Part shown: positions 3,822 to 52,604 of the stretch, piece by piece
Numbering within the stretch: position 1 is the stretch's first letter
Layout of the letters: the number at the start of each line of letters is the position of its first letter
Assembly: GCA_963930775.1 (NCBI GenBank)
Contig: OZ005691.1
Location: 3,286,001 to 3,350,000, forward strand
Length of the DNA: 64,000 nt
From: Cliona cf. orientalis
Taxonomy: Eukaryota; Porifera; Demospongiae; Clionaida; Clionaidae
Direction: 5' to 3'
Notes under the pieces: generated by a model
What the model saw: only the letters and a program-made list of their open reading frames with translations
Database searches by the model: none
Told to the model about the DNA's origin: nothing
Translations under genes and position numbers: made by a program

Positions 3822-4089
3822 ATGGCAGAGGGGCCAGCTGGTGATCAACGTGGAGGGAGTATGAACACAGAGCAGGATTTATTACTTCAACGAGAACAGC
3901 CGGCAACTCTAGAATATCGAGTCACCTCCTCCCACGGCAGCTCTAGGGAGGTGAGCCCCGCTCCCACTGCTGCCCCTGCCCCCGGTGCTAAAAAGCCAGG
4001 CTACTTTAGTGAGAATGGATACTTCATGAAGCTGTCCAGACAAAAGAGACAAAGAACAGAACAAGAAATCAAGAAAAGATTCAAACCAG
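3822..4089 (+). CDS. Gene 1, exon 1 (N-terminal region)
   Basis: Starts MAEGPAGDQRGG and ends KKRFKP plus one base before a GTGAGA donor. It contains a Ser/Ala/Pro-rich middle and a basic, probably helical end (LSRQKRQRTEQEIKKRF). Its frame is open in both copies, although lengths differ (268 versus 277 bases, a multiple of three), which supports coding use. Confidence 0.7.
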
Positions 4090-7000: not shown

Positions 7001-10000
7001 ACAGGCCCTGCATGTCACTTGTATTATCATTTCACTTGTCTGACTCAGTCTATACTTGTGGTTCTTCGTCATAATAATCGTGTGCGCGTGTATTAATGTC
7101 ACCTTGTTGCACATTGCAGGTCTGACTGTTGATAATGTCAGAAAGGCACTACATGGAATACCCTGGCGTAAGGTTGGTGAGATGCTGTCCATTCCACACT
7201 CCAAGCTCAGTGAAATTGAGGGGGAGTATCGCAGTGATGAGGAACGTGAAGTAGCAGTGATCAGATACTGGATCCTTAGAGATCCATTTGCATCATGGAG
7301 AAAGATTATAGAGCGACTTGAAGACCAGTTGAAACATGATCATGCTATTACACTCTATCACTACAGTGAGGAGCTGACTGGTATGTTGGGAGCACAACCA
7401 TACACCTCATGCACCCCAATTACTGCTACATGTACATGTGTACATGTTGGTAGATGTAGATTAATACATGTACTGGTTGAAAAAACATCATAGAGTAAGA
7501 TTCGCCAGTGAGAATAGGTGGCAAAATTGAAAAAAGACACTATTGATGAAAATTTATGGTTCTCTACAGTGTTAGACTTTACTTGGCATATGTATTACAC
7601 GTACAATGTGTACATGTACCACAGATACATATACATGTTTGGGAATTTCATGCTTATGAAACATCCATTTTATGATATTGTATAGGAATGACCTCACATT
7701 AATATTGTGCATGTATTTGCAGCCATGCCCTTTTGAGTATGACAAGTTATAACGAAAATTTCCAAATTATTTTTTAGTATTAAGTATGCGGAAAGATCCA
7801 TACATAAGCACACATACACATGCTCACTACCACTACTGATAATGATATTGTGAGAGTGGCTATTTCAATGGCACATGTATATCCATTCCTTCCCCTCTCA
7901 GACTCCAGCCTCACTCACAGCAATCTATCAGCAGTGCTGGAGACAGTGGAAGTGGGGGAGCTATGGGTCTACCTCAGTGTACCATTCAGTGTGTGGGGGA
8001 AGCTACGGCAGCAGTGTGACAATGATGAGGAGCGTAGGAATGAACTGATTAGCTGGTGGCTGCAGTATTCTCCCTATGCTTTTGATTCTTGGAAGTGGCT
8101 CTCTGGTCGACTTCTCCACTATGGGGAGGAGAGTGCTTTAGCTGCTGCAAAGAGATACATCCATCAAACACCTGGTATGAGTGTGGTTAATTATCGGCAT
8201 GCACACATACATGTACATAGTGTTGTGTATAATCAGTGTTGCGTGATTATGGTAAGGGGACATCACAAGCCTAGCCCCTATTGAGGATAGGCATGTATTA
8301 GTATGATAATATTATTTCTAAGGTACAAGTATGTTTAATGTCACAATCATGGGATACTGTGGCTAGTATGCATGATCAGTACATGCTCACAAAACATAGA
8401 GACATAGTTCATGTACAAACAGTATCCTGCCTATGCAAGATTGTCCACTAGTACCAAGCGCATGCGCAGATGAAAGTGGCATGAACTTTGAACCTGTACC
8501 AATTATTGCACAGGCCACACCCCTCACAGCAAGTAGTTGCTCTGGCTCCAACTAAGTATGCAATGGCAACGTTCTCACTCTGCTCGAATGTCGCTACCGG
8601 ACTACTGACAGGTATGACAAAGAACAGACCTCACCTCTCACTTCGCTTGAGGCTCAGTGGCTAGCGTCAGCGCCTGCTTAGCAGGCTTTTCGAAACGCAC
8701 GGCGCTTTCACGCCAATCGTTCGACAATGTGTCTCTAGCTGTAGCTATGGCCCGAGGCATTAAAGCCACTCTCCTTTGTACGCACAGCCCTACAGTTTTG
8801 ACCAATCCTGAGCCTTGTAATGCGGACTTTCTCTCTGTCCGTGCCGCCGGTTTATAGCAACCGGGCGCATCCAAGATGCATATCCATGCCCTCATGTAAT
8901 GACGCGGACTATATAAGAAAAATGACCGTCTAAAAAATACTTTTCGTTGTATATCATAGAGTCGGTAGACTCTATAAGTAGGGATGGCCCGGATATTGCC
9001 ATATATGTAATACATTACAAAAACTTGAATAACTCAGAGCAACTTAAATTTTAAGATTTTTAACTCTCATATTCATGATCTACGCCAGAATATGTATCTA
9101 TCAAGCCCCCACACATCCATGGAAACGATCAGGTGTGCCTGAACCAGCTGTGTAAAAAATAGCCAATTGTCAATCTTTCTTTCTTTTTCATTACCAGGGC
9201 TAGCTCAAGACTCTCTGGACCGCTCACCTTAGTTCTCATATAAATCCACTCTATTTTGTAGCGCGCAGTGCAGTGTCACACTAGTTTTGTGTTATCATGA
9301 CACCGTTACGTAATGGTGGGTTTGGTCAGCGCATTGTACGATTGGGTGTGTCTTATATGCCATTTTGTTATATAATGCGTATGCTTATAATGTGTTACCA
9401 TGGTGAAGTCATGTGACAGGAGTTAAGCGCTGGCGCCGCGCGCCACCGCATCGATCACGCGGGCACGGGCAGACTGGACCTGGAGAACGAGCTAGGCTGT
9501 GAAAAACTTCTATTTAGGGTGCAAACCTAAAAAGTTAGTAAGTTTAATGTTGGTAGCAGCTTCTCTGGGTCTGGGAACGAGGCTAGTCACTGAGCATACT
9601 GTTTATTATGCCAAGATCTAGAGCTTGCCTATGTAGAGTACGGCCGTGGCCGCGGTACGGTAACGACGACCTAGTGAGGGGCGTGGCTAAGACTGCGCGC
9701 GAGCAATTTTAGGCTTGTCATCCTGGATACGTATACTATAATAGCATTATTATGCCACTGCACCATTGAAAGTGAAGTTAAGAGCCAATGAGAACATCAT
9801 AATAGATAGCATTGATGAAATAAGAGAAACAAAAAAAAGAACAGAAACAAGTATAAACTAGAGCTCTCTCGAGCACAAAACCCTCGGCGCGCTGCATGGC
9901 ATTAGCTAAATGCTTCAACAGTTGCATGCAGAAAGGAGGTAGCTAAAGGGCTGGGGCCGGGGTGAGACAGGGATGAGGCTAATGTTATACTTGCACAGCA

Positions 10001-13000
10001 GTCACGGTTATTCAAGGTGCAACGGCTCATAGCAGCAACAACTCTAGTGTGTTGTATCGAACTCTACACTGTGGTGTAGTCGCGTGTGGAGATTGAAGGG
10101 TATGGCTTGCGAGACTAACTATGGTGTAGAGATCAACTTAACTTCCCTCACTGTAGCCTAAACTCCAATTCTTGGGTTCTTAGCTAGCTACATCTTAACT
10201 TGACGAATTATGATGCACAGTCTTGGTACAAGACTGAAGTACACTGAGCAAAATTATATTGCATGTCCAATATTATCACAACTCACTTGCCGGGTTCAAG
10301 CACTGTAATCCCATGCATGCATACAAGCCAGAGTGTCAAAGGGTACCATAAGAATACAGGAAGCTTTGTGTGGGATGACAGTGGCTTCTTTTCAACTCCA
10401 AGGCTTAGGACGAAAAAGGGGTCTAGCTTGATAGACTGTACTAGCCAGTGGGGGATTGATGCAACCGCGCATGCGCTGAGGGTTAATAGACGTACATACC
10501 GTATATAGCGCGCAACCTATTTATACGTTAAGTCATGCTATCGCTAGCTCGGGCAAAGTCAAGAAGCTTAGAATCGGCAAATGACGCCAAAACTGGCGAA
10601 CAAAGCGTTTTCGGAGAAATCCATACAAATCATGGGTTTGGAATGCCATAAGGAACCTTGCAACACCGAAAATTGGACTCGCAAACGAGGTATGTAGCAG
10701 CTAGCGTGGTAACAGACAGACAGACAGACAAACCAACTACCGTAACCCTCGCGCATGCGCCGAGGGTTAAAAACAATGAAATTGAAAGGAGAAGTAGGGA
10801 TGGGAGGGCCAAAAAGTATACAAACAAGATTTGTAGGGATAATCATGTCCACTATACATCCCTACGCTTGCTTTTTGAGTAGGTGCAGGAATAAACTAAC
10901 CAGGCAGTAATGCGACAGTCAATCCCCCCACCCCTACGAGCCAAGCATTAAGCTAGCATTAATTTCTCTTGGTTAAGGATAGCACCAATGAATCATCGTC
11001 AACAGGCATATGGTAGCCATAATCGAAAAAAGCAAGCGTTGGGATGTATAGTGGACATGATTATCCCTACAAATCTTGTTTGTATACTTTTTGGCCCTCC
11101 CATCCCTACTTCTCCTTTCAATTTCATTGTTTTTTATACTTGTAGTATAACAATCTCTACGTGAGTATTATGGTAGGCAGGTACATTGTATACTGGAGTT
11201 GGATACTCTCCTCTCCATATGATTGTACATGTACTCTTGGCTAAAGGTGATGATAACTGCATTTGTCTTGAGTTACGTCCTAATGCATGTACATGTTATT
11301 TTCATTGGTATGTGTATATGTTATTGTATTTTACTTTCATTGGTATGTACATGTACATATGTACACATAAATTTGTTTTCATATTTCCATCTGTGAATGC
11401 ATGAGGCATGCGTGTTGCCTCTTGGATGCTCTCCTCTCTTTACAGACCCAACACTAACCCTCAACAATGTCACTGCTGTAATCAAAGATGTCCAGCGGTG
11501 GGAGGGTGTGGCTGATTGGATTGATATTCCTTACAGAAAACGTGAAGAGCTGAAGAGTCAGAATCCTACCACTGACCAAGCCAAACAAGCCTGCTGGGAC
11601 TATTGGCTCCGTCACCACTCAGCCCCCTCCTGGAGGATATTGGCTGATGGGCTTTATATGTACAAGGAACATGGAGCATTGGAGGTGCTGCAGATGAATT
11701 ACCTCAAAGGTGAGTCTATTGGAGCTTACCACAGTCTCCTGGGTAACTGAGCACGTAACAACCCTGTTGCCTGAGATTTGATCAAGTCTGAGGGTGTATA
11801 TGGGCTATATGTGTTATTACATGTACATGTATCCCACGTGATTGGTCCACAGTGTGGCGCACGCAATGCCGTCCATAGTGACTGTTGCAGTATAAGTTAG
11901 TAAGCAATCGATCTTTAAATGTAATGGACGGTCTCAAAAATGTCTTGTTCTTCATTTCTCATTGTTTGGCTTGAAGCAGTGGACCATCATTAAACCAGTG
12001 CTTCAGCTGCTGACTCGAATAGTAGTGAAGTTGCTTTTCAATGTGCATGACAAACATTTTTGATGAGCCTCTATTAGTGACTAATTACACCAGGGGCGTA
12101 GGAACAGGTCCGGCAGACCCAGCGGCTGCTGGACTAGTGTTTGAGCCTGCCTTCGTGATACAATTGAAAACCTTACCTGCTATATTTTGCTAGAACTCGG
12201 CTCAAAGTTCTGAATAGCGCTCACTTTTAATAATACTAGAGCTCTATAGAGCACATACCCCGCACGCTCTGTAGCCACTGTAGCGCAACACTCTGTGGCA
12301 TAGCTGTTTTATGACTTGACGACCCTTTCCAACACTGAGCTTGAGCATGCGCAGTCACATCAGCATACTATTGTGCTTAAAGAATGGGTGTGGTCGATAA
12401 ACCACAGGCATGCTGAATAAAAGTGCACGATTTGTAACACTAGTAAGTCTTTTTGAGCAATTCAAAGCACATACAAACCAGTTTTTCACCGATGTCTACC
12501 GATTGGTTGTGCTTACAGCACGCATATATGCCTAGAACGTGAGATCTGGCGATTTTTGTGCTGCCGACAATGACAGACAGACAAACGGATTGCTTTACCA
12601 CTTGCGCATGCGTGTGGGGTAATAAGCACAGTATGAACAGGAATGAACTTTGATCTATTGCTAGGTAGCAATGTATACTGCTACACAGGCAAGGAATCCT
12701 CTATAAGTGAACTGCTTTTGGGGGGGGGGGGGAGGGGGGGACATCATGCTTGACCAACCAAAATTTGCTTCCTACGCCCCTGTACACTGCATCTACATAG
12801 GCAGGTTAAGTAGGGCTACATGTATAGCTAGCTACCACCCGAGTTTCATGTAACAATTTTAAGTTTTGTGCAATTTTCTGGTGAAGGTCGTCAGTTGCTA
12901 CACACATGAAAATCCTAGTTACATGTAATTCTTTCATTTTAATAATAGAAAACTATTTAGGGTTAATGTGGCTTAATAAGTCCTTGATTTGAGTAAGGAC

Positions 13001-16000
13001 TACCGTGTAGCCAGAAAATTTGGCGGAGAATTAAATTTGCAACCGCCAAATTAAAATCTGCCAAAATTTCCTACTTGCATATGTACATATGGTGATCCCG
13101 TACCGAACCACCAAATTTAAATCTGCCAATATTCTTGCAATAGCAATTTTGGGCTCATCCGCCAAATGTAAATTCCCGCCAATATTTCCGGCTATACGGG
13201 TGGCTTCTTGCTATACTATATGCAATGAAAAATATTTTTCAGACGATCAATTTTCTTATATAGTCCGTGTCCTAACCTGGAGGGCATAAAAGATGCGCTC
13301 TCCTACAAGTTCAGAAGACTCATGATTGGTCAGAATTGTTGTGCCGTGTGCACAAACAAGGTTACCAGGGCCTTGCGCCTAGGGGCCATAGAGATGCATT
13401 CTCGAGCTTGAACGAGCGGCGCAAGCGCCGCACATTTCAACAGGCCTGCTTGGCAGGCCACCGAGCCTCAAGCGAAGGGAGAGGTGATGTCTGCTCTTTG
13501 TCATGGTCTGGTGGTAGATTCGACGTTCGAGCGGAGTGAGAACGTCGCCATTACACGGTGAGTTTGAGTAGCTGCTCAATGAGGGGGTGTGGTCTACACC
13601 AGTTCGGTGTTGCTTTCATCTGTGCATGCGCACTGTACTAACTACTCGATTATACATAGCATGTAGTGTTCAGTCATGATTGTGACATCAAACATACTTG
13701 TAGCTTAGTAATAAATATGGCACTAATTATTAACTCATCTTCCTCGCTTGTATAAACGATGTTCAATATCATATACCGTATTTATTCGAATAGAAACCGC
13801 ACCCCGAACAGTATTATCATGATTAACAGATATAGGCATGCAGGGTTGGGGTCTCGTGATATTAATTTTATCATGAACAATTGTTACACTGGTCGCACTA
13901 GTATTAAAATAATGTACGTAGCTGTACAGAACACTTTGAGGTTCCCAAATGTGGAGTTATGCTATCCAGATTAAAAATGATTAGATCACGATTACATAAC
14001 TAAGCCGCCCTCGTATAGTAGCCGCTACTGGAGGTCCGCCAAAGAAATAGTAGCCGCCCGCGAATAGTAGCCGCACACATGCGTGAACACAGTTTAAGTG
14101 GGTGTGGTCACGTTCACACGCCATGAACAATCGTCAGTTCGAGGCAAAAGCATTACAGAAGACGTCCCTGGCTTGGTTCTGCTGCTGTTTTTCGATCATA
14201 ATATCTCGACTATTCGAAAAGTAGTCCTAAAAATCTAGTCTATCACAAGATACCACCGGATTGACGCAAAGCTGTCCTCGAATAAGAGCTTCCCTCGATT
14301 AGTAGCCGCATTCCAGCAAGGCTGAAATTAATAGTAGCCACGGCTACTATTTGAATAAATACTGTACATGCATGTATTGTATGTACAGGGGCACTGTGTG
14401 CTCATACGAAGGTGTACTGAAATACTACTGTTTCTGAAACAGTGACTCTGATTGGTTGAAACTATAGGCCAAATTATGGTTGATATTCTCCCTATAACTT
14501 GCTTGTGTTCATACACATCCTCCCCTTTCACCTATGGCATTGGTATACTACATGTACATGGAATATATAATCAAGATACTGATAGCATGCAGCCATAACT
14601 TTCCTCATCCATGCTGTGCTTTAAATAGCAAGTGAATCTATAGCCTTACGTGGAGAAGGGTATTGGTCTTGGTTCTACTTTGTACATGGAAATTGTACCA
14701 GGATTGACAAATTCTAATATGCATATTGTATATACATTTAGCTAATGGTAGTACGTGGTATAAAATTTTATATTTTTGGACCAATCCGCAGAAATGTCAA
14801 ATGTTAGTACCCATAGTCACCCTAAGGTACATGTACAGTAACTCTCACCAGAGATGGTGTGTGTGTCTGTACATATATGTCTGTCTATTACCCGTCTATT
14901 GCCTCTGTGGTTCATATCGGCCGCATGCTTGCATTTTGTAACTTAAAATTTTTTTCTTAAAAGATATGGATTTTTACGACTAGCCATGATATTAATTAAC
15001 CCTCGGCACATGCGCGAGGGTGACATTATTCGTTGTATCTGTCTATCTGTCTATTATCAAGCTAGCGGCTACATAACTCGTTTGTGAGTCCACAAGTGCA
15101 ACGTCATAAGTACGGTCTCATAAGGTTCCTTATGGTGTTCCAAACACATGTATTATGTGGATTTCGCTGACTTGCTTACTTCATAAGTTTTGGCGTTATT
15201 TGCTGATTCTAAGCTTCTTAACCTGGCTTTACGTATAAATAGAACGTTGTGTGTTGCGTGCTGATATAGTAAGCTTATGTACATAATGGTAACCATCTGT
15301 GCATGCGCTGTAAGGTTACAGTAATCGTTGACTCCGTGCTGATCGCCACCTTCTTCGCTCCCTGGCGAGTGAAGCTTTCAATAGATGTAGCTGACGACAG
15401 AGGCTATAGATCCAATAAGACAACTGGCTCATCGTTGATTGGAGCGCAGTTTACCGTACTTAATCTAATACTATGCATTATATTTGATTAACTACGGTAA
15501 TAATACCAACTTCAGTGCTGATTCAAGATGTTTTGAAGAAGCTAGCTAATGTTCCCAAGGAGGCTACTGTGAGGGACATTATCGGCACCGTAGTGCGGAG
15601 TTAGATACAACACACCAGGGTTGTTACCGTGAGCCGTTGAACTTTGAACAACACTGCTGCAGTGCGAGTATAACATTAGCCTCGCCCCCCAGCCTTTACA
15701 TTGAAATTCGATAAAGGGTTGAAGATGAGGCTGCTACATGTACAATATGTTAAATAGTGTGCTGTCATTGCCTGCTTGTGCAGCTGTACAATACCATATG
15801 CGACGCACCCAGGGTTTTATATGCTCTAAAGAGTTCTAGATGGTGATAGCATCAATATCAAAAGTTAAGTGAAAAAATATTAATGTTATAACGGTATATC
15901 TTTAGGTACCAGTGAATCACGGCGTCTTTTTGAGGTCTCGATGAAGTTTGGCTTTGTAGATGCTTCCGTGGATAAAATGTTGTTCCACGGAAGTGCAGGT

Positions 16001-20589: not shown

Positions 20590-20626
<37 letters not shown>

Positions 20627-26105: not shown

Positions 26106-26276
26106 AGTTTGTAGGTGAGCTCCAATTAGGAAACAAGCCCCGCCTCTTCCATAAGAGGGGTGGGGCTGCAAAAGTAGAGGCTGACACTCCCTGCAGAATA
26201 CAGAATGCACAAACGAACATGGCGTACTAAGGAACAAAGCAGTTAAAGGAGTTAGCTGACGGCGTTGATTGGTGAT
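26106..26276. promoter_or_regulatory. Shared divergent promoter region, block 2
   Basis: The interval between the SLC7 copy 2 start and the ATG of gene 2. The CCCCGCCTCTTCCATAAGAG stretch and the GTTGATTGGTGAT element directly before the ATG match block 1. With SLC7 dead here, the region may now serve gene 2 only. Confidence 0.4.
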
Positions 26277-26553
26277 ATGGCAGAGAGGCCAGCTGGTGAC
26301 CAACGTGGAGGGAGTATGGACACAGAGCAGGACTTGTTGCTTCAACGAGAACAACCAGCAACTCGAGAATATCGAGTTATCTCCTCCCCCGGCAGCTCTA
26401 GGGGGGCGGCTAGCCTGAGCCTTGCTGCCACTGCTGCCCCTGCCCTCGGCGCCAAAAGATCAGGCTACTATAGTGAGAATGGATACCTCATGAAGCTGTC
26501 CAGACAAGAAAGACAAAGAATAGAACAAGAAATCAAGAAAAGATTCAAACCAG
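26277..26553 (+). CDS. Gene 2, exon 1 (N-terminal region)
   Basis: MAERPAGDQRGGSMDTEQDL onward, ending KKRFKP plus one base before GTGAGA. Nine bases longer than in gene 1, frame kept. Confidence 0.7.
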
Positions 26554-29500: not shown

Positions 29501-32500
29501 CAAGAATGAAGCATAATGGGCAACATTCCAGCTTAGACGAGGCGCCACCATACCCACTTTTCAATGGTGGTACTAAGAAACCACCAGCTAAACGTGAATC
29601 TGCATTAAATGAGGCCTTGACCAATTGTGCAAACGTCGTCGTGAGTGCGATTACAGGAAACAATCCTGTTTCGGCGCCTGGACCAGTATCTCCTGGGAAA
29701 CGCGCTCGTGTTTCGGGGCTATACTTGGAGCAATTGGAGAGGCTGAGGGCGCTTCAGCAATCAGGAGTGCTTACACCCGAAGAATTTGAAGAGCAAAAAG
29801 CTTATGCCTTGAAAAACATCCGTGAACTCAATAAATGAAATGGAAAATGCTATCTAAATTCGACAGTAACACACAAATAATAATGATAATAAAATGTTTA
29901 GTCTCTGTGTATGTATCCACAATCTTTGACCCATCCATAACAGTCACTTGGTGTAACACTAGCAAAAGCTGAAAGTATAGCATCCTCAATTTCTGAACCC
30001 TCAAGAACTTGAATGAGTGGATCATTAGCTCTTAGATAGGCTTTAACTTTTGAAAAACACTCCTCAATTGGCATGATGTCGGGGGAGTATGGTGGGAGAT
30101 AGATAACTATAGCTCCAACTTCTTCAATGAGGGCCACAACTTTGTCCACATGATGGATACTAGCATTATCCATGACTACTACACTTCTTGGATTGGTACA
30201 ATTAAAGGGCATTAAGTAGGGGAGGAGGCACCATTCAACATAATCACAAGACATGTCCCCATCCACACTTTCTGTCGTAATATGAACATCTAGCATTCCA
30301 TCCATGCTCATACCAGCTATTGTTGAGTATTGTTTTCCTTTAATAAGTAATCTATCTGAAACAGCTCGCATTCCCTTCAGAGCATATCCATATCGGCGAA
30401 GTGCACAACGCTTGTCTGAGCCGGTTTCATCTACAAAAACCAGTGTCTGTGGTTCATACAGTGACATTTCAGACATAATACTGTGCCCTAAGCTCCTCAC
30501 TCCTTTGGAGTGCTCTGTAGGTTAGCCTCTTTCGGGAAAATTTCTATATTTGCAGGAATTTACAAATAGCTGATACAGATATTACAGTGCCAGTTGTTTG
30601 AAGTACAAGATGTTGCAGTTCATGGAGACACATGGAAGGGTTGTCTACAATAGCCTCCATGATGGTAAATTCATCCACTGTACTTAACTTCTTGCATGTA
30701 TTCTCATGATATCCTTGGATACTGCAAACAGTTCCTGTTTCCTCAAACAATTGCACTGTCCTACTCACTGTTGTAGGGTCAACATTTAGCTGCTGTGCCA
30801 CTTTCGCGTAGGAAAGCCCCAGCACACATCGTTGATACATGTAAACCATGCGCCACCTCAAATCGCTAGAATAGGCCTTAGATCGCGCACTCTCTATAGA
30901 CATCTTGCACTCTGGTTTGCTCTATCCTCGCGCCAGGCTCTCCCGCGCTGGCGCGAGGCTAGGTTTGCTCCACTGCACGGTCAAAATTCAAAAAAAAAAT
31001 TGCGCACCTGCACTCTGAGGTAAAAATTACGTGCGGGGGCGTTCTGTTGACAAAACGGAAGCCCCACTAGTTGCACCCAGCTACAACTAGTGGTTGCAGT
31101 ACTCAGCACTTTGACTCTGCAAGGGTGTAGAAAAGCACTAGCTAGCTGTACAATTCTGTAGCCACATACATGTAGTAGTCAGAGTAGCCTCAGTGGCAAA
31201 ACTCCCGACGTACTGGGGATGAATCATGCATGCTCCTCATCCCTTGGTCTTCATAGTGACAAGATAGACTGACTCACTGAGTCAGTCTATCTTGTCAGCT
31301 GAGCAACAGATAGCTGCTTGTACTAGAGGGGCATCCCAATATCCCCCCTCTACTATTTAAAAAAATATGAGCGAAGGCTCGCCCCCTCAATGATTTACAT
31401 CACCCTAGTATTATTAATACAAAGAATGCCCAATCTAGGCATCTATAGTAACCTTGTGCTTAGGTACCGGATACTATTGTATTATACTTGCCCTATGACC
31501 TAATTCCTTGTGCTGGTGTGACCTAGAAATGGCAAGCTTGGATGGTTTAAGTTTGAAGTGAAATTTCCCAAGAGAAGGTTGCCATGTTGACTAATGAAGG
31601 TGTGGGTGTGTTAAGTGCAAGGGCTAGTGCAAAGGTCATGAGGTCGTCAGATCCCTGATATTGGACATGATTGGGACAAACCTAAGCGAGCCCCACATAA
31701 ACGGTACATGTATGTGTGAATTGTATATATATTATTATTATGGTACGTCGGTCACGCAAAATATATGCCCAGCATGGCTCTATGGACATAAGCGTGAAAT
31801 ATTCTATTGCGCATTCTTATGCCTTCATGAGCCCACGGGCCGTATGTACGCTGTTCTAGTTTAGCCAATTACAGATTTACACTCGTGCAGCATGAAATTG
31901 CTATTGCAACTTGCCATGAACGCTGAACCAGGGACCCTGGCTGAGCCAAGTGTAAACCAGAGACAAAGAAGGCTGCAAAGAATGCTGGAGGGAGACAAAT
32001 TGTCTTCAGCACAGTCAGCTCAACCGCACGAGGAGTGGCTATAGAAGGCGATAGAGGTAGGATAGACGTGCTGCTCACCGAGCTGTGCAATTGTGAGCCT
32101 GGCATCTATGCAGCTGTCCTGCCAGACTATTAAAAACACAGTTATAATTTGACTGTTGACATAGAATAGACACTATGTGGAGAGGACTATCAGGTAGGTG
32201 CACAGCAACTATGACTGTCATGCTTGGATTCATTGTCCATGGTCTTCACGATCTATGGCTTCAGTCTCTACTCCAGTCCATAGATCTATATCAAGTCCGA
32301 CAGAACCTTTCTCAGCTCAGGCTCGCCCCAAACAGGCCCTGCATGTCACTAGTATTATCATTTCACTTGTCTGACTCGGTCTATACTTGTGGTTCTTCAT
32401 CATAATAATCATGTGCGTGTGTGTTAATGTCACCTTGTTGTACATTGCAGGTCTGACTGTTGATAATGTCAGAAAGGCACTACATGGAATACCCTGGCGT

Positions 32501-35500
32501 GAGGTTGGTGAGATGCTATTCATTCCAGACTCCAAGCTCAGTGAAATTGAGGGAGCGTATCGCAGTGGTGAGGAACGTGAAGTAGCAGTGATCAGATACT
32601 GGATCCTCAGAGATCCATTCGCATCATGGAGAAGAATTATACAGCAACTTGAAAAGCAGTTGAACCATGATCATGCTATTACACTCTATCACTACAGTGA
32701 GGAGCTGACTGGTATGTTGGGAGCACTAACCACACACCTCATGCATCCCAATTACTGCTACATGTACACGTGTACATGTTGGTAGATGTAGATCAATACA
32801 TGTACAAACATCATAGAGTAAGGATTCGCCAGTGAGAATAGGTGGCAAAATTTAAAAAGAGACACTATTGGTGAAAATTTATAGTTGTACAGTGTTAGAC
32901 TTTACTTGGCATACATGTATGTATTACATGTACAATGTGTACATGTACCACAGATACATAATACATGTATGGGAATTTCATGCTTATGAAACATCCATTT
33001 TATGATATTATTGTATAGGAATGACCTCACATTAATATTGTGTATGCATTTGCAGCCATGCACTTTTGAGTATGACAAGTTATAACGAAAATTTCCAAAT
33101 TCTTAGTATTAAGTATGCGGAATGATCCATACTAAAGTCAAAAATACATAAGCACACATACACATGCTCACTACCACTACTGATAATGATATTGTGAGAG
33201 TGGCTGTTTCAATGGCACATGTATATCCATTCCTTCCCCTCTCAGACTCCAGCCTCACTCACAGCAATCTAGCAGCAGTGCTGGAGACAGTGGAAGTGTG
33301 GCGGCTGGGGGACTTCCTCGATGTACCACTCAGTTTGTGGGGGAAGCTACGGCAGCAGTGTGACAATGATGAGGAGTATAGGAATGAACTGATTTGCTGG
33401 TGGCTGCAGTGTTCTCTCTATGCTCTTGATTCTTGGAAGTGGCTCTCTGGTCGACTTCTCTACTTTGGGGAGGAGAGTGCTTCAGCTACTGCTAAGAGAT
33501 ACATCCATCAAACACCTGGTATGAGTGTGGTTAATTATCGGCATGCCACACATACATTGTACAACGTGTCATATGTAATGTGTATTGCGTACACAGTGTC
33601 GTGTATAATCAGTGTTGCGTGATTATGGTAAGGGGACATCACAAGCCTAGCCCCTATTGAGGATAGGCATGTATTAGTATGATAATATTATTTCTAAGGT
33701 ACAAGTATGTTTAATGTCACAATCATGGGATACTGTGGCTAGTATGCATGATCAGTACATGCTCACAAAACATAGAGACATAATACATGTACAAACAGTA
33801 TCCTGCCTGTGGAAGATTGTCCACTAGTACCAAGCATACGCGCAGATGGAAGTGGCATGAACTTTGAACCTGTACCAATTATTGCACAGGCCACACCCCT
33901 CACAGCAAGTAGTTGCTCTGGCTCCAACTAAGTATGCAATGGCAACGTTCTCACTCTGCTCGAATGTCGCTACCGGACTACTGACGCATGTCGCTTTCAT
34001 GCTGATGGTTCGACAATGCGTCTCTAGCTGTAGCTATGGCCTGAGGCTTTAAGGCCACTCTTCTTTGTGCACCTGCCCCTAAAGTTCTTACCAATCCTGA
34101 GCCTAGTATTGTGGACTTTCTCTCCACCCGTGCCGCGCATTCATAGCAACCGGGCGATCGAAGATGCGTATCCATGCCCCCATGTAATGACACTGACTAT
34201 ACATGTATAAGAAAAATGACCGTCTGAAAAATATTTTTCGTTGTATATAGTATAACAATCTCTACATGAGTATTATGGTAGGCAGGTACATTGTATACTG
34301 GAGATGGATACTCTCCTCTCCATATGATTGTACATGTACTCTTGGCTAAAGGTGATAATAACTGCATTTGTCTTACAGAGTTACTGTAAATCACGAATAA
34401 TTCGATGTTAAAACAGTTTCAGACAGCATGACTTGTGCGAAAATTAAACACACAAAATACATGCGCAATATTAACGACAATGCGGTACAGGGTCGTTTGT
34501 CCGAAAATTATTTAACGCGAAAAATTATCGCATGAAATATTTTAGACACGAAATATTCGCGATTTATGGTACGTCCTAATGCATGTACATGTACATATTA
34601 TCGTATTTTAATTTCATTGGTATGTGTATATGTACATATGTACATATGTACACATAAATTTGTTTTCATATTTCCATCTGTGAATGCATGAGCAATCATG
34701 CATGTTGCCTCCAGGACACTCTCCTCTCTTTACAGACCCAACACTAACCCTCAACAATGTCACTGCTATAATGAAAGATGTCCGGCAGTGGGAGAGTGTG
34801 GCTGATTGGATTGGTATTCCTCTCAGCAAACGTCGTGAGCTCAAGAGTCAGAGCCCTACCACTGACCAAGCCAAACAAGCCTGCTGGGACTATTGGCTCC
34901 ATCACCACCCAGCCCCCTCCTGGAGGATATTGGCTGGTGGGATTTATGAGTGGCGGGAACATGGAGCATTGGAGGTGCTGCAGATGAATTACCTCAAAGG
35001 TGAGTCTATTGGAGCTTACCACAGTCTCCTGGGTAGCTGAGAACATAGCAATCCTGTTGCCTGAGAAGTCTGAGGGTGTATATGGGCTATATGTGTTATT
35101 ACATATACATGTATCCCACCTGATTGGTCCACAGTGTGGCGCACGTAATGCCGTCCATAGTGACTGTTGCAGTATAAGTTAGTAAGCAATCGATCTTTAA
35201 ATATAATGGACGGTCTCAAAAATGTCTTGTTCTTCATTTCTCATTGTTTGGCTTGAAGCAGTGGACCATCATTAAACCAGTGCTTTAGCTGCTGACTTGA
35301 GTAGTAGTGAAGTTGCTTTTCAATGTGCATGACAAACATTTTTGATGAGCCTCTATTAGTGACTAGTTACACCAGGGGCATAGGAACAGCTCCGGCAGAC
35401 CCAGCGGCTGCTGGACTAATGTTTGAGTCTGCCTTCGTGATACAATTGAAAACTTTACCTGCTATATTTCGCTAGCACTCGGCTCAAAGTTCTGAATAGC

Positions 35501-38500
35501 GCTCACTTTTAATAACATCAGAGCTCTATAGAGCACATACCCCGCACGCTCTGTAGCCACTGTAGCGCAACACTCTGTGGCATAGCTGTTTTATGACTTT
35601 ACGACCCTTTCCAACACTGAGCTTGAGCATGCACAGTCGCATCAGCATACTATTGTGCTACAAGAGTGGGTGTGGTCGATAAACCACAGGCATGTTGAAC
35701 AGAAGTGCACGATTTGTAGCACTAGTAAGCCTTTTTGAGCAATTCGAAGCACATACAAACCAGTTTTTCACCGATATCTACCGATTGGTTGTGCTTATAG
35801 CACGCACAGATGCCTAGAACGTGAGATCTGGTGATTTTCGTGCCGCCGACGACGACAGACAAACCGATTGCTTTACCCCTTGCACATGCACGTGGGGTAA
35901 TAAGCACAGTATTAACTGGAATGAACTTTGACCTATTGCCAGGTAACAATGTATACTGCTACACAGGCAAGGAATCCCCTACATGTATAAGTGAACTGCT
36001 TTGGGGGGGGGGGGGGGGGGGGGGACGTCATGCCTGACCAACTAAGTTACATGTAAGTAGGTCTACATGTATAGCTAGCTACATGTACCATCCGAATTAC
36101 ATGTAACAATTTTAAGTTTTGTGCAATTTTCTGGTGAAGGTCGTCAGTTGCTACACACATGAAAATCCTAATTCTTTCATTTTAATAATAGAAAACTAAT
36201 TAGGGTTAATGTGGCTTAATAAGTTCTTGATTTGAGTAAGGACTACCGTATAGCCAGAAGATTTGGCGGGGAATTAAATTTGGCGGTTTGGCGGTCTATA
36301 TTACAACCGCCAAATTAAAATCTGCCAAAATTTCCTACTCACATATGTACATATGGCGATCCCATACCGAACCGCCAAATTTAAATTCACCAATATTCTT
36401 GCAATAGTGATTTTGGGCTCAACCACCAAATTTAATTTCCGCCAATATTTCCGGCTATACGGTATGTTACCGGGTGGCTTCTTGTAATAAATATAGTGAT
36501 GTAATGACACTAATTATTAATGCATCTTCCTTGCTTGTATAAACGATGTTCAATACCATATACATGCATGTATTGTGTGTACAGGGGCACTGTGTGCTCA
36601 TACAAAGGTGTACTGAAATACTACTGTTTCTGAAACAGTGACTCTGATTGATTGAAACTATAGGCCAAATTGTGGTTGATATTCTCCCTATAACTTGCTT
36701 GTGTTATACACATCCTCCCCTTTCACCTATGGCATTGGTATACTGCATGTACATGGAATATATAATCAAGATACTGATAGCATGCAGCCATAACTTTCCT
36801 CATCCATGCTGTGCTTTAAATAGCAAGTGAATCTATAGTCTCCCCCAATCCCCACATGGAGAAGGGTATTGGTGTTGGCTCTACATTGTACATGGAAATG
36901 GTATCAGGGTCGACAAATTTTAATGCTCTATAAAATGCGTAGCTAATGACAGTGGTATAAAATTTTACATTCTTGGACCAATCCACAGAAATATCAAATG
37001 TTAATACCCATAGTCACCCTAAGGTACGTGTACAGTAACTCTCACCAGAGATGGTGTGTGTGTCTGTACATGTACATTGTATGTCTGTCTATTACCCATC
37101 TATTGCCTCTATGGTTCATATCGGCCCCGCGCTTGCAATTTGTGGCTAAAACTTTTGCTTAGAAGATTTTTACGACTAGCCAGGACATTAATTAACCCTC
37201 GGCGCATGCGTGAGGGTGACATTATTCGTTGTATCTGTCTGTCTGTCTATTATCAAGCTAGCGGCTACATAACTCGTTTGCGAGTCCACAAGTGCAGTGT
37301 CATAAGGTTCCTTATTCTGTTCCAAACACATGTATTGTGTGGATTTCGCTGACTTGCTTACTTTATAAATTTTGGCATTATTTGCTGTTTCTATGCTTCT
37401 TAACCTGACTTTACGTATATTAAATAGAACGTTGTGTGTTGCGTGCTGATATAGTAAGCTTATGTACATATTATTTGTGCATGCGCTGTAAGGTTACAGT
37501 AATCGTTGGCGCTGTGCTGGTCGCCACCTTCCTCGCTCCCTAGCGAGTGAAGCTTTTGATGGATGAAGCTGACAACAGGGGCTATATATCCAATAAGACA
37601 ACTGGCTCATCATTGAAAACGCGCGTTTTTCTGGTAAAGGTCGTCAATCACTCCATATATAATCGTTACGAGAAATTCGTGAAAATTAATGCTAATTTAT
37701 TGCGTTAAATTGGATCATGCGTTGTATTCTATTAACTATGGTAATAATATAGACTTCAGTCCGGCTACTATGAGGGACATTGTCGGCACCGTAGTGCGGA
37801 GTTAGATACAACACACTAGGGTTATTACCATGAGCCATTGAACTTTGAACAACACTGCTGCAGTGCGCGTATAACATTAACCTCGCCCCCAGCCCTTTAC
37901 GTTGAATTTTTGATAAAGGGTTGAAGATGAGGCTACTACATGTATGTTGAACACTGTGCTGTCGTTGCCTGCTTGTGCTGCTGTATAATACCATATGCGA
38001 AGCACCAAGGGTTTTATATGCTCTAAAGAGATCTAGATGGTGATAGCATCAAGATCAATAGTTAAGTGAAAAAATTTAATGTTATAATGGTATATCTTTA
38101 GGTACCAGTGAATCACGGCGTCTTTTTGAGGTCTCAATGAAGAGTGGCTTTGTAGATGCTTCCGTGGATAAAATGTTGTTCCACGGAAGTGCAGGTGTCG
38201 GCAAAACCTGCACTATGAGCATTGTCGCAGGAGAAAAAATACCCGAAGCTCGACACAGTACCCCCATAGCCACCCGCCCCGTAACCATCTTTCAAATGCT
38301 GTTGTCAAAGGAGATATGGCTCAAATACACGTCGGAACAAAGATTGAAGATCTGTGCATGGCTGTCGAAATTGGGACTCAGACCGGAACTCATCGAAGTG
38401 TTGAAACAGGGAGCAGCAACTCCAGCTCTAGATCCAACCAGTGAGGAAGGTAGCAACCAGGAGGAGAGTGGCAGAGAACAAGTACAAAGTCCACGAAGTT

Positions 38501-40758
38501 CAGGTGCCGAGCAATCTGCAGTCCAAGTCAGTGAGCAGCGTGCTGATCGCTCAAGTATTGCAGCACAACCATCTACTGCTTCTGTCGATTCCAAAGTGAT
38601 CAAAGTGATCCAGGAGGTCCTTGACAAGATGTTTGAGCTGATTGATAAGTGCTCCGAGTTAGAAGACCCAATCTCCTTCCTGCGTAAGGTCCTCATCACT
38701 GATTGTGGAGGGCAGCCTCAATTTCATGAGATCTTACCCATCTTCTTGAAAAAGATGTCTATGATCGTGTTTATCATTAAGCTATCGGAAGAGCTTTCTA
38801 GCCGTCCAATGATCGAATACTACGAGAATGGAAAATCCTTGGGCACTCCTTATGAATCCGACCTGACCACTGAGCAGCTCCTCCAGCAAGGCCTTCGATC
38901 ACTCCACTCTCATCGCTCCAGCAAAGATAAAGGTGATGATGCTCCACAGATTGTGGTCGTTGGCACTCATAAAGACAAGGAGGGAGAGTGCAAGGAATCC
39001 AGGGAAGCAAAAAATCAGAAACTGCGAGAAATGCTTCTACCCACCTTCAAAGACGAGATTGTCTACTACCAGGCTGCCACAAATGACATCCTCTTCCCTA
39101 TGAATGCAAGGTGCCCTGGCCAAGAAGAAGAGGATATGGCACAAGTGGTTCGGAATAGAGTGCGCAGATCAAAACCAAGGCGAATTCCTCTTCCATGGAT
39201 GGCTCTAGAGATTGTGCTGGATGAAATCACTCACGTTCTTCAACGTGGACTACTCCACAAGAATGAATGCCTTGAAGTTGCTCGCAGGCTTCACTTTGAC
39301 GAGAGCACCCTAGAAGCAGCTCTAATGTACCTCGATGAGCTGTCTCTGATCCTCTACTATCCCGATATTCTTCCAGACCTTGTCTTCACCAACCCACAGG
39401 TGCTGTTGGACAAAGTCTCTGAGCTTGTGAAAGTCCATCACGATTTGAGAAAACGCTGTGGAGATAAGGCATGGCAAGAATTTTTCAATCATGCTCTTGT
39501 CACAGTCGAATTTCTTTCTCAAAAGGATTTCGATAAGCACTATGTGCCTGGCCTCTTCATGCCTGAAAACCTGGTGATTTTCTGCCGAAAGCTCTTCATT
39601 TTTGCCAACTATTCTGAGGGGAAATTTTTCGTCCCTTGCCTTCTCCGAATGCTTGGCCGTATTGATGTCTCAAAGTATCGCCTGTCACATGACTACCATC
39701 TCACACCACTTGTCCTCCACTTCACTGATGGCCCTCCACGTCGTGGCATCTTCTGTGCTCTTCTCTGTTTCTTGACTTCACCAGAGAATCACTTCCCGGG
39801 ACCGTGGAAGTTGAAGATGCCATCAGCTGGATCAGTCACTCCCACTTGCCTCCACCGCAACTGCGTCCAGTTCACCATTCGTGGGGTCAAAGTACCTTGC
39901 ACTGTGACACTCATCGACACCTTGCTTCAGTTTGAGGTACACGTGAAAGTTTCAAAGGAAGCTGCATGCAAGGTCTGCCCAATAATCAAACGTGCTATCA
40001 CAGCTGGGCTGCAGAAGGCTAACGTCACCTTAGGCTACACGAACTCGACACCATCTTTTGCCTTTCTCTGTCCTTGTGGAGCTGGAGAGCCTCATCCTGC
40101 TACCATCGGAGATGGATTTTGGATCTGCACTTCGGATGAGGGAGAGGGAGACAAGTTTTCATCAAATCAACAGCTGTGGTTAGATGGAGACATTCTTTTG
40201 GAGGAAACATCAGGTATAATTTTTAACTAAGTTACTTCTAGGCCATATTTTTTTGCCATTAAACTTATGAGAATTTGCTGTATTATGATTATCCTAAGCC
40301 CTCTAAGCCATCAAGTTTGCTCCTCTAGATTTATCTCACATGTATCTAAGAACTAATTAAAGTATATACACGTTTGTAGATTTATTCCACGTGTATCTTA
40401 ATATTATTAATTTACATATCTGTATGTACATGTAGGTTCATCTCCGACGATGGCTGAGCTGCTTCACTTTTGTGCTGGTGACAGTCACATCAACATACCT
40501 CGGGAGGTGGGAACAAAGTACCACAATCTTGGAGCACAGCTTCTCCGCGAAAGCTTTGGATACATCAGATCACTGGAGAGAGAACTCCATGAGAATGCAG
40601 AGAGAATCAACTGCCAGATTTTTCAAGAGTGGCTAGACGGCAAAGGAAGGAAGCCTACGTCGTGGGGTACGGTGGTGGGGGTACTCAATGACATTGAAAT
40701 GGGAGAACTAGCAAGTAAAATTGAAACCAGCCTCAACATTCACACACCCAACTATTAG
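26277..40758 (+). CDS. Death domain x3 - ROC-like GTPase - COR - death domain protein, gene 2
   Basis: Exons 26277-26553, 32451-32711, 33246-33518, 34736-34999, 38102-40213 and 40436-40758. All junctions are phase 1 and the predicted protein is 1,169 residues. Architecture as in gene 1: N-terminal basic region, three death domains, P-loop GSAGVGKT, DCGGQ, GTHKD, COR-like region, CPCGAGEPH cluster and C-terminal death domain. It differs from gene 1 mainly in the first exon, death domain 2, and the Ser/Glu/Gln linker, which is six residues shorter (SPRSSGAEQSAVQ). No stop or frameshift is seen. Intron 1 has absorbed two large insertions that gene 1 lacks. An extra exon (31961-32133) could end a short isoform, and 32175-32193 could start an alternative transcript. 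Confidence 0.8.
26612..27674. mobile_element. hAT-like MITE with a nested hairpin element
   Basis: Ends CAGGGTTTCATTT and AATGAAACCCTG. The left half has CCCCC-rich blocks typical of one old MITE type (GCACTCGCCCCCCCTTGG). The element interrupts TGTATCC/TATCCTAG, which is continuous in gene 1 near 4,140. A second element occupies 27041-27664. Confidence 0.65.
27041..27664 (+). mobile_element. Hairpin-ended element (short form), nested
   Basis: CTAGAGCTCTGTAGAGCACA at the start and TTGCGCATGCGCGCGGGGTA at the end; a CAACGAC repeat precedes the terminal hairpin. Same family as 12236-12623. Confidence 0.65.
28406..29838 (+). pseudogene. Transposon passenger gene: ubiquitin-like/PB1-like fold plus SHOCT-like C end
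   Basis: Exons about 28406-28539, 28908-28973 and 29129-29838 join in frame (PSPYVQ-IHDDPNPRQ, then RIHTE-EIDSATLD). An N-terminal half of about 95 residues (ISYVVRIIDPDCKT to ITLWCEG) resembles ubiquitin-like/PB1 folds by pattern only. Next comes YRMWARMKHNGQH. The C end, LERLRALQQSGVLTPEEFEE, has the pattern of a SHOCT motif, a short helical oligomerisation domain. The frame slips at the A6 run near 29,453-29,458; the downstream frame continues GEDYNAPQYRMW without loss, implying one missing A. Similar proteins are, to my recollection, common in cnidarian and sponge genomes, but I cannot name a family. The first exon's upstream end is uncertain. Confidence 0.55.
28623..28893. mobile_element. 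MITE in the passenger gene intron
   Basis: About 40 bp inverted ends, each containing CAGTTAATAA and ATACACCCCTGTTGAGGA. About 270 bp, non-coding, with repeated CCCC(C)AGA phrases. It stops about 15 bp before the exon 2 acceptor. Confidence 0.7.
29898..30903 (-). pseudogene. Tc1/mariner-superfamily (IS630-like) transposase, DD34E, broken
   Basis: Minus strand. The start at 30903 opens a helix-turn-helix region (SYAKVAQQLNVDPTTVSRTV), then a second recognition-like part. The catalytic core shows LVFVDETGSD, VVMDNASIHH and YSPDIMPIEE; 34 residues separate the second D from E. It ends YGWVKDCGYIHRD. An in-frame TAG follows KFLQI near 30,545, and the frame shifts after LRAQY (near 30,490), where reading resumes as MSEMSLYEPQ. 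Both are breaks in an otherwise recognisable 330-residue enzyme. It would cut and rejoin DNA at the transposon ends. No nuclear localisation signal was sought. Confidence 0.85.
31258..31296. repeat. Perfect hairpin, 19 bp stem
   Basis: GACAAGATAGACTGACTCA followed by C and its exact reverse complement. Located in the right arm of the transposon insertion. Confidence 0.85.
31961..32133 (+). CDS. Possible alternative terminal exon of gene 2 (short isoform)
   Basis: An acceptor (GTGTAAACCAG) precedes 31961. Joined in phase 1 to exon 1 it reads KP-E-TKKAAKNAGGRQ, continuing through GRIDVLLTEL to a TAA at 32131-32133. That would give a 149-residue protein without death domains. I do not recognise the sequence. 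The matching stretch in gene 1 keeps the frame but lacks the acceptor. A transcript with this exon would exclude the rest of the gene unless another start (32175) is used. Confidence 0.4.
32175..32193 (+). other. Possible alternative first micro-exon, gene 2
   Basis: Identical to 5453-5471: ATG, six codons plus one base, then GTAGGT, in phase with death-domain exon 1. Confidence 0.35.
32451..32711 (+). CDS. Gene 2, death-domain exon 1
   Basis: 87 codons, LTVDNVRKALHGIPWREVGE onward; same boundaries and phase as in gene 1. Confidence 0.8.
33246..33518 (+). CDS. Gene 2, death-domain exon 2
   Basis: 91 codons, DSSLTHSNLAAVLETVEVWR onward, with CWWLQ and SWKWLSGRL. The most diverged of the death-domain exons between the two genes. 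Confidence 0.75.
34382..34571. mobile_element. Small MITE with CTGTAAATCACGAATA ends
   Basis: Inverted ends TACTGTAAATCACGAATA and TTCGCGATTTATGGTA. Gene 1 has an empty site at GAGTTACGTCC (near 11,270). Confidence 0.65.
34736..34999 (+). CDS. Gene 2, death-domain exon 3
   Basis: 88 codons, DPTLTLNNVTAIMKDVRQWE onward; same splice phases as gene 1. Confidence 0.78.
35373..36045. mobile_element. hAT-like MITE (paralogue of 12091-12782), right end lost
   Basis: Starts CAGGGGCATAGGAACAGCTC. It holds the nested hairpin element 35518-35901 and a poly-G run at 36003-36024. The right inverted repeat seen in gene 1 is missing here. Confidence 0.6.
35518..35901 (+). mobile_element. Hairpin-ended element (short form)
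   Basis: GAGCTCTATAGAGCACATAC at the start and CACATGCACGTGGGGTAAT at the end. Paralogue of 12236-12623. Confidence 0.6.
36244..36461. repeat. TTTGGCGG MITE (paralogue of 13001-13200)
   Basis: ACCGTATAGCCAG and CCGGCTATACGG ends in inverted orientation. Confidence 0.55.
37192..38036 (-). mobile_element. Hairpin-ended element (long form), reverse
   Basis: Paralogue of 14996-15840: TTAACCCTCGGCGCATGCG at the left, GAGATCTAGA at the right, CTGTCTGTCTGTCTATT inside the left end. Confidence 0.5.
38102..40213 (+). CDS. Gene 2, ROC-COR exon (704 codons)
   Basis: The same motifs as gene 1 in the same order. Substitutions cluster in the linker between G1 and G3 and in a short stretch after the G4 motif (YYQAATNDILF versus YYQVDTEDILF); the P-loop, DCGGQ, GTHKD and the Cys/His cluster are unchanged. 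No frame interruption over 2.1 kb. Confidence 0.85.
40436..40758 (+). CDS. Gene 2, C-terminal death-domain exon
   Basis: SSPTMAELLHFCAGDSHINI onward; one residue longer at the end (HTPNY) than gene 1. The acceptor TGTACATGTAG is shared. Confidence 0.8.
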
Positions 40759-52600: not shown

Positions 52601-52604
52601 GCCT

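Follow-up and report, generated by a model that had tools for sequence, protein, structure and literature searches.

A very large ROCO gene family with diversified N-terminal death domains in the sponge Cliona cf. orientalis

Gene models and domain identity at the locus

The window, a 64,000-nucleotide stretch of the Cliona cf. orientalis genome, contains two genes on its forward strand, A and B, for both of which the exon models predict the protein layout E1-DD1-DD2-DD3-ROC-COR-DD4. Gene A opens with an exon that carries the start codon, a low-complexity N-terminus and a conserved basic tail (E1, 3822..4089), followed by DD1, a six-helix death domain (7120..7380), DD2, a death-like domain (7902..8174), DD3 (11446..11709), a ROC GTPase with a long insert between G1 and G3 and then COR (15906..18035), and the C-terminal death domain DD4 (type 1) with the stop codon (18218..18537). 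The corresponding exons of gene B lie at 26277..26553 (exon 1), 32451..32711 (DD1), 33246..33518 (DD2), 34736..34999 (DD3), 38102..40213 (ROC-COR) and 40436..40758 (DD4, type 1, with stop). A preliminary description of this DNA had reported six matching phase-1 exons, an open frame of about 1,170 codons per gene and intact G motifs. The exons are indeed colinear, with GT-AG introns in phase 1 in both genes and outer ends at 3822 and 40758 as described; the models are uninterrupted at 1171 and 1169 amino acids, and G1 (GSAGVGKT), G3 (DCGGQ) and G4 (THKD) are present in A and B.

We assigned the domains by Pfam, with matches taken at E up to 0.1 for the counts per domain. Alignments used 27 of 28 full DD1 pieces (A2), 23 of 24 (A3), 23 of 23 plus gene A (A4), 18 of 25 plus gene A (A5) and 16 of 30 plus gene A (A6). 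All 17 family members matched Roc, with weak scores (best 1.7e-4), and the match of gene A (E 0.0024) is below the curated cut-off. G1 and G3 are invariant across the 17 ROC rows, and G4 reads THKD in 16 of them and THED in L027. COR-A was matched by 4/17 members (best 5.2e-6), but not by gene A; profile comparison of the COR-A region with a canonical COR-A segment of the same genome gave the expected order at E 5e-4 and a probability of 31%. A PDB sequence search with the ROC-COR profile returned nothing convincing (best E 0.019), and the AF2 model of ROC-COR was discarded (pLDDT 31). Pfam Death was matched by DD1 in 16/27 members, by DD3 in 12/24, by DD4 in 18/19 (best 5e-9) and by DD2 in 0/23. 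Profile-profile comparison links DD2 to both DD1 and DD3 (97% and 98%). DD1 of gene A was modelled by AF2 with a pLDDT of 84.9, and its best Foldseek match is a chain of the Fas/FADD death-domain complex (TM 0.74, E 0.0047); the DD3 profile had no match in the PDB at E up to 1. We assign DD1-DD4, as predicted domains, to the death domain superfamily, DD2 solely via its homology to DD1 and DD3; DD1 alone was modelled. The HMM check proposed earlier was thus borne out for Roc and for Death in DD1, DD3 and DD4, but not in DD2, and COR-A was recovered in four members only. Exon models and Pfam Roc, COR-A and Death matches uphold a ROCO layout with several death domains; the sponge origin holds as well. 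With Pfam, E1-DD3, DD4 and the ROC-COR exon gave no match to a protein kinase, which DAPK1-type (group 3) Roco proteins have at the N-terminus, or to the N-terminal LRRs of LRR-ROCO proteins (group 1, MFHAS1, brown algal). E1-DD3 and the ROC-COR exon also gave no TRADD-N match with E up to 1, assuming that Pfam covers these TRADD-N variants.

The flanking syntaxin and SLC7 copies had both been called decayed. The syntaxin label holds (Pfam SNARE, 7e-15), but beside A and B the four translated syntaxin exons have open frames and hardly differ; a third copy, located where the window begins, has a one-base gap that shifts the frame in one of the three exons examined. The SLC7 copies beside A and B do contain frameshifts, read by eye, and a further SLC7 first-exon ORF (50066-50896) is open and matches AA_permease_2.

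Family size and genome distribution

The family motif GGQPQFHE gave 146 exact codon matches genome-wide (control 0), and the ROC-COR exon has 13 near copies in the genome. Among the motif places listed on chromosome 3, 86/90 had a DD1-like and/or DD3-like exon upstream, with 0 in the opposite-strand control, and 12 of the 13 genome matches of gene A E1 lie on chromosome 3 near the family. E1, DD1, DD3 and ROC occur in the same order and on the same strand at 12/13 loci of cluster W, as do DD1, DD3 and ROC at 6/6 loci of cluster V. Since the exon order of A and B recurs at other loci, their layout is beyond chance. By these counts the sponge is predicted to have well over a hundred copies of the multi-death-domain ROCO gene. 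A and B had been presented as twin genes; the pair belongs to the 13 near copies, in a family of 146 motif places, and the many copies rule out a twin-paralogue reading. The collected exon pieces exclude short ones of v1 (DD2, E1) and v5 (E1). Arrays with DD exons lie at 2.95-3.04, 3.19-3.33 and 3.60-3.82 Mb.

An AG precedes 17/17 DD1, 18/18 DD2 and 17/18 DD3 locus pieces, the acceptor being absent at one DD3 exon, and a GT follows every one of them; these pieces represent 17, 17 and 16 distinct genes, the DD1 and DD2 sets including A and B. Such conserved splice sites, together with the order and strand kept at the W and V loci, make it highly improbable that the death-domain exons end up in other transcripts than the ROC-COR exon, a reading for which the long introns, one of them in gene B with a transposase ORF, could be cited.

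Diversifying selection and exon sharing in DD1-DD3

In site models, M2a was favoured over M1a with LRT values of 112, 163 and 138 for DD1, DD2 and DD3, and omega was about 7-9 in 16-17% of codons (d1, with its stop, and the truncated d6 were left out for DD1, and d2 for DD2). In gene A DD1, the hypervariable codons form two patches, one at 7179..7199 (codons 7179, 7188 and 7197; end of H2, H2-H3 loop and start of H3) and one at 7323..7331 (three codons; end of H5 and H5-H6 loop). In the controls, ROC-COR was not hypervariable (p 0.073 in W and 0.84 in V) and DD4 hardly so (p 0.97 for type 2 and 0.036 for type 1); this control run produced numerical warnings (division by zero). Positions under selection coincide among DD1, DD2 and DD3 (p 1e-5 to 8e-5). 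Nine DD1 sites chosen in W and V had tree-free dN/dS of 6.2 and 6.5 in two other clusters, with 95% intervals above 3.3, and the twelve DD1 columns that vary most in W and V were more variable in the 10 Mb cluster too (p 1e-4). A tree-free regional test was significant for DD1, DD2 and DD3 in W and for DD2 in V, where the intervals for DD1 (0.70-2.86) and DD3 (0.99-3.62) span 1; dS is likewise elevated in the hypervariable region. The tree-free tests left d1 and d6 out of W, and L061 on chromosome 14 stood outside the F clusters both there and in the 10 Mb column, fourfold and site-coincidence comparisons.

Between A and B, omega was 0.19 in ROC-COR, which is under purifying selection, 0.37 in DD4, 0.39 in E1 and 0.59 in DD1, and exceeded 1 in DD2 (3.1) and DD3 (2.0). 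The earlier proposal that selection had kept both copies, for which dN/dS between the two genes was the suggested check, therefore holds for ROC-COR, DD4, E1 and perhaps DD1, but not for DD2 and DD3. Taken with the site-model omega of 7-9, the DD2 and DD3 values point to a large diversifying family and not to two conserved paralogues. From these alignments, a few predicted surface positions of DD1-DD3 change very fast between copies and the remainder is fixed, a pattern also known from receptors of immunity or self-recognition.

The DD exons of clusters W and V are alike even at fourfold sites, with identities of 0.91 (DD1), 0.94 (DD2) and 0.94 (DD3); in the same genes the values are 0.46 for ROC-COR and 0.48 for E1 (one V gene). 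Silent-site constraint was rejected as the cause in the case of DD1, which against the 10 Mb cluster has a fourfold identity of 0.37 and a dS of 1.46. The introns flanking the DD exons do not align between W and V. Mean alignment scores of the DD1-DD2 intron were 309 within W and 392 within V (shuffled 108 and 121), and between W and V 96 (shuffled 85), with 91 upstream of DD1 (shuffled 96); outside exons, W and V match in a few short stretches of 23-116 bases. Because the DD1-DD2 intron aligns within each cluster and hardly between them, we disfavour a transfer of the whole DD1-DD2 genomic segment from W into V. The joined DD exons and ROC conflict in topology (ROC topology under DD data, p 5.8e-5; converse, p 9e-28) and also in branch length; V as a clade was not rejected in separate DD trees (AU p 0.45, 0.39 and 0.20 for DD1, DD2 and DD3). 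These topology tests omitted d1, d3 and v1, and the intron alignment omitted d2, d6 and v1. DD exons thus appear to have been exchanged between clusters, and the route may be ectopic gene conversion confined to what homology remains, or some other exon-precise one. Recombination among copies can inflate M2a.

The apparent swapping of DD exons, the stop in DD1 of d1 and the 81 haplotypic duplications removed in curation according to the Cliona cf. orientalis genome paper would suit an ordinary expanding family in which the signature of positive selection is an artefact of recombination, gene conversion, uncollapsed haplotypes or decaying copies. We regard this as very unlikely, since 58/64 ROC rows are stop-free, the ROC-COR and DD4 controls come from the same genes, tree-free and cross-cluster tests agree, and seven direct tandem copies can hardly be read as haplotypes.

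Predicted recognition role and related systems

A and B belong to a very large ROCO family of the sponge, and we see an even chance that in this family DD1-DD3 form a recognition head, ROC-COR a switch and DD4 an output. Our favoured reading is a diversified, GTPase-switched recognition family, probably with an immune or allorecognition role. The three N-terminal death domains would constitute the diversified head, ROC-COR the GTP-switched core and the C-terminal DD4 a mostly conserved output. The contact faces described for death domains include the type I and type II 'b' faces (PMC7156525), on which the variable residues (end of H2, H2-H3 loop, H3 and H5-H6 loop) would lie. These faces would determine the partner or ligand of each copy; binding by the head would change the GTPase state of ROC and the COR dimer, and DD4 would then recruit an adaptor common to the copies and so trigger an immune, cell-death or allorecognition response. 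The plain signalling scaffold suggested earlier leaves the hypervariable contact faces unexplained.

The same faces serve contacts between death domains, and other Death exons are abundant in the genome (150/150 scored candidates, and so at least 150, above cut-off; 1292 candidates in all). The variable faces might thus pair with co-evolving partner death-domain proteins in insulated parallel pathways with no non-self ligand; this is unlikely, as an omega of 7-9 that recurs in other clusters exceeds the need of simple duplicate divergence. Sponges also live with dense bacteria, and the Foldseek matches of DD1 include 6aci and 6ac0, death domains that a bacterial effector binds or modifies. The copies could accordingly be attacked by, or act as decoys for, microbial effectors directed at death domains, with variable residues that evade or trap them, a scenario we hold to be quite improbable, given that selection covers whole contact faces and not one modified residue.

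Within the recognition reading, it is possible, though on balance doubtful, that the death domains are variable modules of a germline-diversified repertoire. Their exons would then come from a pool shared between clusters by exon-precise exchange or homogenisation, which would join heads to different ROC-COR switches in new combinations. Such a pool, if real, would amount to a modular self/non-self recognition system built on neither LRRs nor immunoglobulins. Sponges are not known to have antibodies or lymphocytes. A recognition role would bear on how they separate self from non-self and manage dense microbiomes, and death domains, normally conserved adaptors, would have a variable recognition role in this sponge. 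More than 100 ROCO genes with death domains that vary at fixed contact positions provide named genes and codons to test, and suggest that these domains can act as variable binding surfaces.

Among the papers listed, titles and abstract openings pointed to none on multi-death-domain ROCO genes under diversifying selection. DAPK1 (Roco group 3), as described in PMC6337361, has ROC-COR followed by a C-terminal death domain, as is predicted for the sponge proteins, but it carries an N-terminal kinase and one death domain, whereas the sponge family has three extra N-terminal death domains and no kinase was found. Amphimedon TRADD-N proteins are a large sponge expansion with 1-3 N-terminal death-superfamily domains, and roles against invaders have been proposed for families of this type (PMC8195603); they combine TRADD-N with ankyrin, LRR, kinase or other C-termini, unlike the ROC-COR plus DD4 of the present family, which gave no TRADD-N match. 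The canonical LRR-ROC-COR genes L007 and L008 of the same genome resemble the A/B family in Roc and in its putative COR-A, but have strong scores for both and LRRs, which were not matched in the A/B family. A close parallel is with the brown algal LRR-ROCO genes (Teng et al. 2024, PMC11378527; Zambounis et al. 2012, cited there), which are described as proposed immune receptors with a ROC-COR core and variable N-terminal modules, one exon each in a fixed phase, under diversifying selection at recurring module positions and with exon shuffling. Their module is a 23-residue LRR encoded by 72-bp phase-2 exons, whereas the sponge module is a whole death domain in phase-1 exons, with a C-terminal death domain added; the sponge genes would therefore work like the algal ones without belonging to them. 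Positive selection at fixed positions of exon-encoded modules was found in the sponge family as well, and would carry the idea of exon-diversified ROCO receptors over from brown algae to an animal that uses a different module.

Gene models and domain composition

Gene A contains six exons: E1, which encodes a short N-terminus (3822-4089), three exons each encoding a death-like domain (DD1, 7120-7380; DD2, 7902-8174; DD3, 11446-11709), a ROC-COR exon in which a long insert separates the G1 and G3 motifs (15906-18035) and an exon for the C-terminal death domain DD4 (18218-18537). Gene B has the same order and the same kind of insert (E1, 26277-26553; DD1, 32451-32711; DD2, 33246-33518; DD3, 34736-34999; ROC-COR, 38102-40213; DD4, 40436-40758). 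Every intron in both genes is GT-AG and phase 1, and the spliced frames run without internal stop for 1171 aa in gene A and 1169 aa in gene B; the two gene models of the preliminary description were right in outline.

Because single sequences gave weak Pfam scores, we scanned sets of copies and counted matches at E values up to 0.1. The proposed series of three death domains, ROC-COR and a fourth death domain was supported by Death matches in DD1 (16/27 members, best 2.6e-5), DD3 (12/24, best 3.2e-5) and DD4 (18/19, best 5e-9) and by Roc matches in 17/17 ROC-COR exons (best 1.7e-4), but none of the 23 DD2 members matched Death at this threshold and only 4/17 ROC-COR exons matched COR-A (best 5.2e-6). 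Profile comparison ties DD2 to DD1 (97%) and DD3 (98%). In a PDB profile search, the RIPK1 death domain was matched by DD4 (2.3e-6) and DD1 (0.0032), and the DD3 profile had no match up to E 1. The AF2 model of DD1, for which window sequences alone were used, folds as a six-helix bundle (pLDDT 84.9). Its top Foldseek matches were chains of Fas/FADD death-domain structures (first match: TM 0.74, probability 1.00, E 0.0047), and no match reached E 0.001. The ROC-COR exon profile aligned, in the expected order, with the COR-A segment found in canonical LRR-ROCO genes from this genome (probability 31%). This alignment, together with the Pfam Roc and COR-A matches, makes the predicted ROC domain well supported and a COR domain likely.

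Genome-wide, at least 147 places passed the cut-off for COR-A (147 among the best 150 of 290 candidates scored) and at least 150 for Death (all of the best 150 of 1292 candidates scored). The overall ROCO and death-domain repertoire of Cliona cf. orientalis is very large. Long-frame Roc matches also form an array near 0.87-0.95 Mb of contig C16, and one of them, locus L008, is LRR-ROC-COR.

Gene clusters and mosaic genes

Genes A and B had been read as twins but are two members of a much larger set of copies. The window lies on chromosome 3, and a search with gene A's ROC-COR exon gave 13 places there at 92-100%, the exon itself included. These places make up cluster W, a direct array at 3.20-3.33 Mb and an inverted array at 3.60-3.82 Mb. 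Further relatives at 55-67% were present among the rows scored in this search (best 63 of 568 candidates), and 58/64 ROC-COR rows were stop-free. The GGQPQFHE codon pattern had 146 exact matches genome-wide and 0 in the reversed control. Among the 100 matches listed, DD1-like and DD3-like exons both lay upstream of 70/90 places on chromosome 3, just one of the two upstream of 16/90 and neither upstream of 4/90; the opposite-strand control gave 0. Exons counted as upstream if they shared the strand, lay no more than 20 kb away and did not reach beyond the previous ROC place; they were drawn from the best 150 DD1-like and best 150 DD3-like exons.

The order E1, DD1, DD3, ROC is retained in 12/13 W loci, and the order DD1, DD3, ROC in 6/6 loci of the neighbouring cluster V (2.95-3.04 Mb). 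An AG acceptor precedes 17/17 DD1, 18/18 DD2 and 17/18 DD3 locus pieces and a GT donor follows every piece checked; the pieces represent 17, 17 and 16 distinct genes, respectively, with A and B within the DD1 and DD2 sets. The DD1 exon of one W copy (C3:3611932-3612192) has an internal stop, although the ROC-COR exon attributed to this copy keeps an open frame. A solitary DD1-like exon outside the chromosome 3 clusters (C17:4762592-4762804) is 74% identical to gene A and is interrupted by a stop.

Identity between W and V at fourfold sites was 0.458 in ROC-COR, comparably low to that between W and the cluster at 10.08-10.39 Mb (0.43), and 0.48 in E1 (single V gene); it was 0.91 in DD1, 0.94 in DD2 and 0.94 in DD3, near the within-cluster values. 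Around DD1 and DD2, the DNA of W and V ceases to be alike near the exon borders, apart from a few short pieces elsewhere. In gene A the likeness begins about 25 (DD1) and 10 (DD2) bases upstream of the exon and ends a few bases after it. The DD1-DD2 intron is alignable on average inside W and inside V. Silent-site conservation inherent to the DD1 exon was ruled out, since its fourfold identity to the 10.08-10.39 Mb cluster is saturated (0.37). Within W, two DD4 types occur on the same kind of ROC-COR (8 and 5 genes), and type 2 clusters with V. The joined DD1-DD3 topology was rejected under the ROC data (AU 9e-28) and the ROC topology under the joined DD1-DD3 data (AU 5.8e-5); taken separately, none of the DD1, DD2 and DD3 exons rejects V as a clade in the AU test. 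Gene conversion restricted to exons, the sole stretches still alike, would be the simplest account of these mosaic genes.

Positive selection on the upstream death-like domains

Between genes A and B, omega was 0.19 for ROC-COR, 0.59 for DD1, 3.1 for DD2 (21 non-synonymous and 2 synonymous changes) and 2.0 for DD3 (22 and 3). Across 18 genes of W and V, single DD1 codons encode up to nine amino acids next to columns that are invariant or nearly so. The M1a versus M2a codon models, run with our own code on exon trees, placed 16-17% of codons in a selected class in DD1 (LRT 112, omega 8.4), DD2 (LRT 163, omega 9.5) and DD3 (LRT 138, omega 7.4). Run on controls, this code gave p 0.073 (W) and 0.84 (V) for ROC; for DD4, p was 0.97 in type 2 and 0.036 in type 1, where a single site was picked.

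Since recombination can inflate tests of this type, we added tree-free tests, dividing dN of the region from H2 to H3 plus the H5-H6 loop (helices from the model) by dS of the exon. The ratios in W were 2.5 (DD1), 3.8 (DD2) and 2.7 (DD3), with all bootstrap intervals above 1; in V they were 3.6 for DD2, and 1.5 (0.70-2.86) for DD1 and 1.9 (0.99-3.62) for DD3, both with intervals that include 1. Nine DD1 sites chosen in W and V gave 6.2 (3.5-12) in six genes at 10.08-10.39 Mb and 6.5 (3.4-15) in four genes at 8.4-9.1 Mb. The twelve most variable DD1 columns of W and V also showed raised variability in the former cluster (p 1e-4), and DD1 column entropies correlated with those of the two clusters (Spearman 0.40 and 0.49, respectively). 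Positions under selection coincide among DD1, DD2 and DD3 (p 2.5e-5, 7.9e-5 and 1e-5).

On the DD1 model, the common selected positions lie at the end of H2, the H2-H3 loop, the start and length of H3 and the H5-H6 loop, and one common to DD1 and DD2 sits immediately before H2. PMC7156525 describes death-domain complexes in which H2-H3 supplies one face of the type I contact, and the H5-H6 loop together with H6 one face of the type II contact; H1, H4 and the H4-H5 loop supply the opposing faces. Mostly one set of contact faces therefore varies, and the selected residues may make up a single exposed patch. The selection and the position of the sites point to DD1-DD3 as a variable head that would meet a changing partner. 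By analogy with known ROCO and death-domain proteins, ROC-COR may serve as a GTP switch and dimer core, and DD4 may recruit a common death-domain adaptor. Recognition of microbes or foreign sponge tissue would best account for the pattern; private wiring between copies and an arms race with effectors are less likely alternatives.

Related systems and neighbouring features

Brown algal ROCO genes, as described in PMC11378527, carry one LRR module per exon; the modules are shuffled, four fixed positions in them are positively selected, and the genes have been proposed to encode immune receptors. The Cliona family likewise has exon-borne variable modules under selection, but the module is an LRR there and a death domain in the sponge. 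Amphimedon has one clade of 357 TRADD-N proteins, most architectural types of which have 1-3 N-terminal death-like domains (PMC8195603); the Cliona family resembles them in these domains but has no TRADD-N match. DAPK1 resembles the Cliona family in its ROC-COR and in the death domain at its C-terminus, and differs in having an N-terminal kinase (PMC6337361). The Cliona family has parts in common with all three systems and fits none of their subgroups: the sequences scanned gave no Pfam match to a kinase, LRR or TRADD-N. We found no prior description of such a multi-death-domain ROCO family in the literature searched.

Syntaxin-like SNARE copies accompany the repeat unit (19150-20390, 41385-42650 and 98-970 (-); Pfam SNARE 7e-15). 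They had been described as decayed, which fits a third copy with a one-base gap in one of three exons compared, but not the copies beside genes A and B, in which four translated exons keep open frames and hardly differ. A 571-aa ORF with hydrophobic stretches (55911-57626, minus strand) has relatives at 51077-52602 and 59363-59938 in tandem repeats and no Pfam match at E up to 0.01; this set may be a further expanded family of membrane proteins. A DDE_3 transposase ORF (29898-30521, minus strand) lies in gene B's first intron, and a PHD finger is encoded by a 343-aa ORF (53866-54897, plus strand) of possible retroelement origin. An element of about 1.4 kb occurs at 5558-6958 and 62386-63738 in inverted relative orientation, the copies being 84-88% alike.
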